Of a DNA stretch of 64,000 nucleotides, positions 593 to 44,091 are shown one piece after another. The notes below the pieces were generated by a model, which worked only from the letters and a program-made list of their open reading frames with translations, did not search any database and was not told the origin of the DNA. This DNA is from Thermincola ferriacetica (GTDB lineage Bacteria > Bacillota > Thermincolia > Thermincolales > Thermincolaceae), in assembly GCF_001263415.1 (NCBI RefSeq), contig NZ_LGTE01000002.1, positions 1 through 64,000 on the forward strand, read 5' to 3'. Each line of letters starts with the position of its first letter. Positions within the stretch are counted from its first letter, which is position 1. Both the position numbers and the translations under genes were made by a program.

Positions 593-614
593 TAAAATCA
601 AATAAATATTGGAT

Positions 615-739
615 TATCTTCGGGGAAAGGTGCAATTCCTTACCGGCGGTGATGCCCGTCTTGGGATGAGCCCGCGAGCCAGAAGGCCGATTTGGTGAGA
701 ATCCAAAGCCGACAGTTAAAGTCTGGATGGGAGAAGATA
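615..739 (+). ncRNA. FMN riboswitch (RFN element)
   Basis: The conserved RFN blocks occur in order: ATCTTCGGGG at the 5' closing helix, GGTGCAATTCC, ACCGGCGGT, GATGAGCCCGCGAG, GGTGAGAATCC, GCCGACAGT, and GGATGGGAGAAGAT closing the first helix. FMN binding is expected to favour the terminator at 774-808 and lower rib expression. The element sits between a perfect promoter and ribD, which is the standard arrangement in Firmicutes. Confidence 0.97.
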
Positions 740-773
740 CTTAGGTTTGAACCTATTTGCTTATCTATGCACA

Positions 774-43286: not shown

Positions 43287-43347
43287 GCTGCACCGGTGGA
43301 ACAACCGTTGTTTTGTGGATGCCGCTGCACCGCTGAAACAACCGTTG
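43287..43347 (+). repeat. Two 24-bp direct repeats
   Basis: 43287-43310 and 43324-43347 match at 22 of 24 bases (GCTGCACCG.TG.AACAACCGTTG), period 37 bp. They mark the left edge of the structured non-coding region after the LolA-like gene. Confidence 0.8.
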
Positions 43348-43359
43348 CTCCGGGGCTAC

Positions 43360-43503
43360 GGGCAGAGACAGTGTAAACTCCGTTCGGTTGAAATCACTGA
43401 ACCCGGCCGAATCGTCGTCCGTGACTCACGGCCGGGTTTCCGGCGTCCGTGCCGGAAACAGTGATTTCAAGCCCTCACTGTCGTTAACACTGTCTATCTG
43501 CCC
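43360..43503. repeat. Multibranch inverted-repeat element
   Basis: A nested set of perfect stems. The outer one is GGGCAGA+GACAGTGT (43360-43374) with ACACTGTC+TCTGCCC (43487-43503, 2-base bulge). The second is TTGAAATCACTG (43388-43399) with CAGTGATTTCAA (43459-43470). Inside are two side-by-side hairpins: AACCCGGCCG (43400-43409)/CGGCCGGGTT (43429-43438), and TTTCCGGC (43437-43444)/GCCGGAAA (43451-43458). This could be a structured RNA, a palindromic mobile element or a recombination site. No coding frame is supported. Confidence 0.75.
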
Positions 43504-43719
43504 TCCGCCAGGTCGCAACTTATTGTTTCACCGGGCAGCGGCCTCTTTCTCACCCTTACCCGGGGCAGGGCAGGCAGGGTTCTCCGCCTGCCGTTTGGGA
43601 GCGACTGCGCCCGCAAACCCGCAGCCGGGCAGGCAGGGAGTTCCCGCATGTCCGAAGATGGCGAAGGCCGCCGGGAAGTCCGGATCTCGACTTATGCAGG
43701 GTGCCCAGGCTGACGATAA
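43504..43719. other. GC-rich non-coding DNA with small hairpins
   Basis: No gene is recognised. Hairpins include GGCAGGC (43569-43575)/GCCTGCC (43586-43592) and GTTTG (43593-43597)/CAAAC (43614-43618). GGCAGGCAGGG occurs twice (43569 and about 43628). GC content is visibly above the neighbouring genes. Confidence 0.5.
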
Positions 43720-43770
43720 GGGAGGTTAAATGTTTTCCGGAGCGGAGGAATCATTTAACCTCCCCTTTTT
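43720..43770. repeat. GGGAGGTTAAATG palindrome copy 3
   Basis: GGGAGGTTAAATG (43720-43732) and CATTTAACCTCCC (43752-43764) with a 19-base loop, followed by CTTTTT. This is the uninterrupted form of copy 1: the loop TTTTCCGGAGCGGAGGAAT is identical to the flanks of the insertion at 16907-16974. With the T run this copy could work as a terminator. Confidence 0.85.
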
Positions 43771-43805
43771 CCAATCTGCGGCATGCAACATATGCTGAGT
43801 AACCG

Positions 43806-43930
43806 GACGGGAGGCGGCCTGACTTATCAGAAATGCTATATGAGCCATCGAGTTCGGGAACGCTGCCTGCCCGGCAAGGGTTTGCAGCACAAAGCTCCCG
43901 GGTAGCGGAGACACCCTCCTGCCCTGCCAA
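43806..43930 (+). ncRNA. Conserved structured RNA candidate, copy B
   Basis: 43845-43920 matches the start of the window. Here the 5' part is visible: GGGAGG (43809-43814) can pair with CCTCC (near 43915-43919), enclosing a conserved bubble, a TGCC/GGCA hairpin and a CTCC/GGAG hairpin. Loops differ from copy A while stems are kept. The family is not identified. It lies between palindrome copy 3 and pmbA with no open frame. Confidence 0.5.
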
Positions 43931-44091
43931 TATTAGATGATATTAGATGATGCCGCTGTGGAGGCAAGACAATGAGTTGCGACACACTTATAATTTCACT
44001 GTTGCAGTGTTAATTGTCGCCGGTCGTTAAAGGAATATTTTTACTTTTGTTGAATTATACTACCTTGAGAGTGGAAAGGAGTGCTGAATGC

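Follow-up and report, generated by a model that had tools for sequence, protein, structure and literature searches.

The stretch analysed here, referred to as the window, comprises 64,000 nucleotides of Thermincola ferriacetica DNA (contig NZ_LGTE01000002.1, positions 1 to 64,000), and the feature under study lies in a gene-free stretch of 810 bp that spans 43281 to about 44092. A first-pass annotation, made from the letters alone, had described a 144-nt structure there (43360-43503), with two outer stems around two apical hairpins, and these are present as described. Folded as RNA, the 144 nt have a minimum free energy of -76 kcal/mol on the plus strand and -81.7 kcal/mol on the minus strand (z -9.3 and -9.4, respectively), and no shuffled sequence folded equally well. 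The structure is thus real, but the extent originally given was too short: the 144 nt form the interior of a palindrome that measures about 226 nt, and with the outer arms included the minus strand reaches -136.9 kcal/mol (Table 1). The terminal arms (CCGCT..GTGAAACAAC / TTGTTTCAC..AGCGG) are common to the copies of the element. Beneath apical hairpin 2 come an internal loop with tandem G.A and then a CCCGGCC/GGCCGGG stem.

The surroundings had also been noticed in the first-pass annotation and can now be given identities. The direct repeats on the left are a truncated second left arm and the element's own left arm, and the GC-rich hairpin tract on the right is a separate dispersed repeat, called module B here, for which the Rfam scan of the window gave no match. 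With truncated arms and module B around the window copy, the gene-free stretch is a nest of repeats. The tip of module B carries a terminator-like hairpin at 43720-43769.

Table 1. Parts of the element and adjacent repeats (positions in the window)
Feature	Position	Strand	Description
Full element	43318-43543	-	Imperfect long palindrome including the outer arms; TwoAYGGAY RNA; z -13.2 for 43316-43545
Rfam RF01731 (TwoAYGGAY) match	43353-43510	-	Model 1-168; 44.2 bits, gathering score 43, E 1.4e-5 (local scan)
Left outer arm	43318-43335		Hypervariable yet paired segment between conserved ends (alignment A1)
Right outer arm	43527-43543		Pairs with left outer arm
Apical hairpin 1	43437-43458	-	ACGGAC hexaloop, C-G closing pair (sequence and fold)
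Apical hairpin 2	43402-43436	-	3-bp GTC/GAC stem, ACGGAC hexaloop (sequence and fold)
Truncated second left arm	43287-43310	+	92% identical to 43324-43347
Truncated inverted right-arm copy	43945-43983	+	Inverted repeat I6, BLAST
Module B, adjacent distinct dispersed repeat	43545-43940		Long nested palindrome; 73 matches in own genome; z -11.1

When the window was scanned with Rfam at curated cut-offs, two matches were returned, one to an FMN riboswitch and one to TwoAYGGAY (RF01731), a family of unknown function. The score of the second is thin, only just above the cut-off, but the match covers the entire model. Both apical loops of the window copy read ACGGAC, which fits AYGGAY, and the forked fold is the same; the differences from the family are the low score and an extent of about 35 and 33 nt past the Rfam model into paired arms. 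The same genome has 14 matches to RF01731 in all, 8 of them above the cut-off and the best at 52.9 bits. We regard it as close to certain that the element in the window is a TwoAYGGAY RNA of a dispersed family. Among the three options that the first-pass annotation had put forward, a large structured RNA is the best supported, given the Rfam match, the compensatory changes and the homologues across the phylum. TwoAYGGAY was described by Weinberg et al. in 2010 in one table row of the main text (PMC2864571), and the dispersed, multicopy nature of the repeat seen here is a point absent from that main text. The kind of element is known, and what this analysis adds is its dispersed multicopy anatomy, a hypervariable paired arm segment, and co-occurrence with CsrA.

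A second copy in the genome and homologues with compensatory changes had been suggested as checks on the structure, and both were found. BLAST gave 41 dispersed matches to the element in the window's genome (3.18 Mb in 78 contigs), 23 of them near full length. Because the assembly breaks at the element repeats, as seen from several contigs that terminate in a copy, the copy count is approximate. Twenty near-complete copies from this genome were aligned (alignment A1), yielding a consensus of 81 pairs in which 97.3% of cells are paired. At 23 of the 81 pairs both sides have changed, a level reached by none of 500 shuffles, and slid structures pair at 29-43%. Identity is 92% in the core and 91% in the outermost CCGCT, while the arm segment between them falls to 58%; pairing in this variable segment is nevertheless 85%, compared with 67% after shuffling. 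The corresponding columns (14-22 and 219-227; window about 43318-43335 and 43527-43543) are hypervariable between copies and always self-complementary, as they are among the copies of genome G247, which repeat the pattern of conserved ends flanking a variable paired segment. Template switching in palindromes can also yield compensatory changes, and either this process or selection may underlie the compensation in the arms. Initially, insertion into arbitrary hairpins that were already present seemed likely, but in further copies the variable arm proved to be flanked by conserved segments on each side. Three of the G247 copies (L089, L090, and L092) are nested one layer further, inside an outer repeat similar to GAGTCACGGGGACGGTTCTACTGACTCA and to its inverse.

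The loops are the most constant part of the fork. The GGA of both is invariant across the 20 aligned copies, and two GGA apical loops, mostly spaced 24-28 nt apart, occur in 52 of 60 copies from other genomes (picked by a model that already contained GGA loops) and in 21 of 25 copies from the window's own genome (picked by BLAST). This bears on whether the element acts as RNA at all. A protein-binding DNA cruciform, or a chromosome-organising repeat with no role as RNA, would account for the perfectly paired hypervariable arms, which suit DNA hairpins, and for copies that are dispersed and intergenic. However, the tandem G.A and the GGA loops, which are unpaired and conserved, are features that fit an RNA, and the co-occurrence with CsrA described below also argues against a DNA element, which we consider highly improbable.

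If the element is an RNA, the strand matters. Compared with its complement, the TwoAYGGAY strand has the better fold in all 21 own-genome copies and in 53 of the 59 foreign ones, whose selection relied on a model of the TwoAYGGAY strand. The core G-U content is nearly equal between the strands (1.36 vs 1.24 per copy), so the asymmetry in energy stems from loops and mismatches. Gene context was assessed with genes called as simple long ORFs, and on copies and genomes that are not independent samples: among the foreign copies, 28 are antisense to both of their tandem neighbours and 11 are in sense (p 0.009), and a convergent gene follows downstream of the RNA in 39 of 60 cases (p 0.027). The window copy is likewise antisense. 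For the own-genome copies there is a slight excess of antisense (7 vs 5), and none of 18 lies between divergent genes. This antisense bias fits avoidance of CsrA sites in mRNAs, and it also fits a 3'-end role for the plus strand.

The latter possibility would make the element a 3'-UTR or terminator-associated structure on the mRNA strand, in which the long palindrome would be a barrier that protects transcript ends or brings about termination. Such a role would explain the orientation counts, and in four copies (L008, L021, L022, and L025) a T-run does follow the outer hairpin on the plus strand. Most copies lack a T-run, however, the conserved ANGGA lies on the opposite strand, and a 226-nt branched structure with invariant loops far exceeds the needs of a terminator; with the counts drawn from non-independent samples, we consider this explanation unlikely. 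An ordinary terminator was rejected for reasons of size, the conserved fork, and the absence of a T-run at the window copy, in agreement with the original remark that the structure is far beyond a terminator. Most likely, it is the minus strand that is functional, antisense to both flanking genes. Because most copies are antisense, transcription of the GGA strand would require a dedicated promoter.

Beyond the window's genome, a survey of 398 genomes from the phylum, with at most six candidates scored per genome, placed RF01731 in 51 of them, many with several copies. Among the matches listed in a motif scan were Lachnospiraceae, Desulfosporosinus, Thermincola, Dethiobacter, and others, and an Rfam check of 18 motif-scan loci confirmed copies in two Lachnospirales-type isolates, Lysobacter, and Shewanella. 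As to a general enrichment near flagellar genes, only a few copies have such genes as neighbours. One of these could be followed between species: in three species of one genus belonging to the same order as the window's organism (L141, L143, and L144), the flagellar operon contains a copy flanked by a motE-like gene and fliK, antisense to the operon and approximately 3.4 kb from fliG (gene names at this locus, except fliG, come from reading translations). With 96-99% identity, the core of this orthologous copy is more conserved than any other 100-nt window in each pairwise comparison of the three species; whole-element windows are 88-99% identical and flanking windows mostly 60-94%. Paralogous copies within one genome are about 89-91% identical. 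With the orthologous core above its flanks and the paralogues at this level, the sequences favour selection on the fliK-adjacent copy over recent spread. Homogenisation of copies may occur but is not needed, as the orthologues are at least as close as the paralogues.

Other copies are less stable. In genome G036, copy L118 has no counterpart in the sister species G294 and G248, and the right-flank homology ends at the cassette edge. Comparison of L118 with L149 and L154 gives one precise right edge, while the left side is confounded by another insertion, with no clear target duplication. L117 and L151 share the left flank and have similar outer arms, with the inner element between the arms in opposite orientation. 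A related observation is that L150 (G248) and L119 (G036) have different palindromic elements behind the same left flank. Copies are gained, lost, and rearranged, and the genomes in which this polymorphism is seen are fragmented assemblies. When empty sites for the G247 copies were sought, the relatives compared lacked the corresponding flanks.

Such turnover could point to a non-autonomous, MITE-like mobile element, as the first-pass annotation had also proposed, in which a trans-acting transposase spreads a palindromic unit and palindromy brings about the RNA-like structure as a side effect. The 41 dispersed matches, the terminal inverted repeats of the copies, the mosaic nesting with module B and arm fragments, the insertion polymorphism between sister species, and the inversion behind a shared flank would all be in keeping with this. 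However, some of the junctions in the fragmented genomes are possibly assembly errors, a clear target-site duplication was not seen in the L118 comparison, and the invariant GGA of the loops and the conservation of orthologous copies above their coding flanks speak against it. No match to a plasmid or phage was obtained, so phage or plasmid cargo was rejected as well. As for a mobilising enzyme, none was found with the Y1 family checked: a Y1 (RAYT) transposase is absent from 14 of the 51 TwoAYGGAY genomes, including five multi-copy genomes that are at least 99% complete (G247, G224, G280, G254, and G259), which argues against IS200/RAYT mobilisation. The same gap leaves the folded single-strand recombination site, the remaining first-pass option, without support. 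The element resembles the RAYT-mobilised REP/BIME palindromes and MITEs in being a dispersed intergenic palindrome found in mosaics, but it is far longer, branched, and equipped with conserved loops, and it has no consistent Y1 transposase. The mobile-element option is partly supported, but we consider mobility as the whole explanation to be rather doubtful.

What the loops might bind is suggested by their sequence. In nearly all copies they read A(N)GGA(Y), typically closed by C-G, and fit both the published SELEX consensus for CsrA, RUACARGGAUGU with six-base loops and AC/GU pairing, and the ANGGAN hexaloop of RsmE (PMC7652899). The stem of apical hairpin 1 is longer than the short stems favoured in SELEX (PMC7652899). 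CsrA binding was proposed for TwoAYGGAY on motif grounds by Gardner's group in 2014, with validation said to be needed (PMC4333381). The window's genome encodes CsrA (PF02599 match, E 4.8e-22), and across the sampled phylum PF02599 is found in 49 of 51 TwoAYGGAY genomes and in 236 of 347 others (p 4e-6), a comparison that, like those below, is not tree-aware and is confounded by phylogeny and lifestyle. CsrA goes with flagella, and FliG was taken as a control for this reason. Within FliG-positive genomes, TwoAYGGAY occurs in 48 of 280 with CsrA and in 2 of 48 without it (one-sided p 0.011). Stratified by family, it occurs in 2 of 11 CsrA-lacking genomes where 4.9 would be expected (p 0.022). 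The presence lists behind these comparisons were copied by hand, and their totals (285, 328, and 51) match the search tallies. The two TwoAYGGAY genomes with no CsrA match, G007 and G186, are 75% and 94% complete, and incomplete genomes can hide CsrA.

From the structure, family match, copy number, covariation, conservation, loop fit to published CsrA sites, and CsrA co-occurrence, all observed directly, we infer a dispersed family of long-stem RNAs, putatively transcribed and functional as the minus strand, that would bind and perhaps titrate CsrA. We give this reading an even chance. The RNA would form a long self-paired rod, its tip forked into two ANGGAN-loop hairpins approximately 25 nt apart, and one CsrA dimer would bind both loops. 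The many copies would jointly constitute a CsrA-binding RNA, titrating or acting locally, much as CsrB/RsmZ do. Of the mechanisms considered, CsrA binding has the best support, at about even odds. In common with CsrB/RsmZ RNAs, the element, a predicted CsrA binder, has GGA in hairpin loops, several sites, and ANGGAN hexaloops. The arrangement differs, with two sites per RNA and many gene copies here, as opposed to one RNA with many sites. To our knowledge, CsrA-soaking RNAs are not established in this branch of bacteria.

Sequestering RNAs of the CsrB/RsmZ type are established for Gammaproteobacteria, while Bacillus uses the protein FliW (PMC7652899), and outside Gammaproteobacteria CsrA control is known mainly through FliW. 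An RNA family with paired CsrA-type loops in about an eighth of the phylum's sampled genomes, biased to carriers of CsrA, makes the 2014 proposal directly testable. Its dispersed form also poses a puzzle, namely how an RNA gene can spread and yet remain conserved. Tentatively, a multicopy, dispersing RNA repeat might, separately from the Csr sRNAs of Gammaproteobacteria, act as a distributed sponge for CsrA whose dose depends on copy number, with its copies maintained by selection on the GGA fork, the arm segment changing freely while it remains paired; this is a possibility that we lean against. The other Rfam match in the window, the FMN riboswitch, lies far upstream of the element (612-742, plus strand, 113.7 bits).
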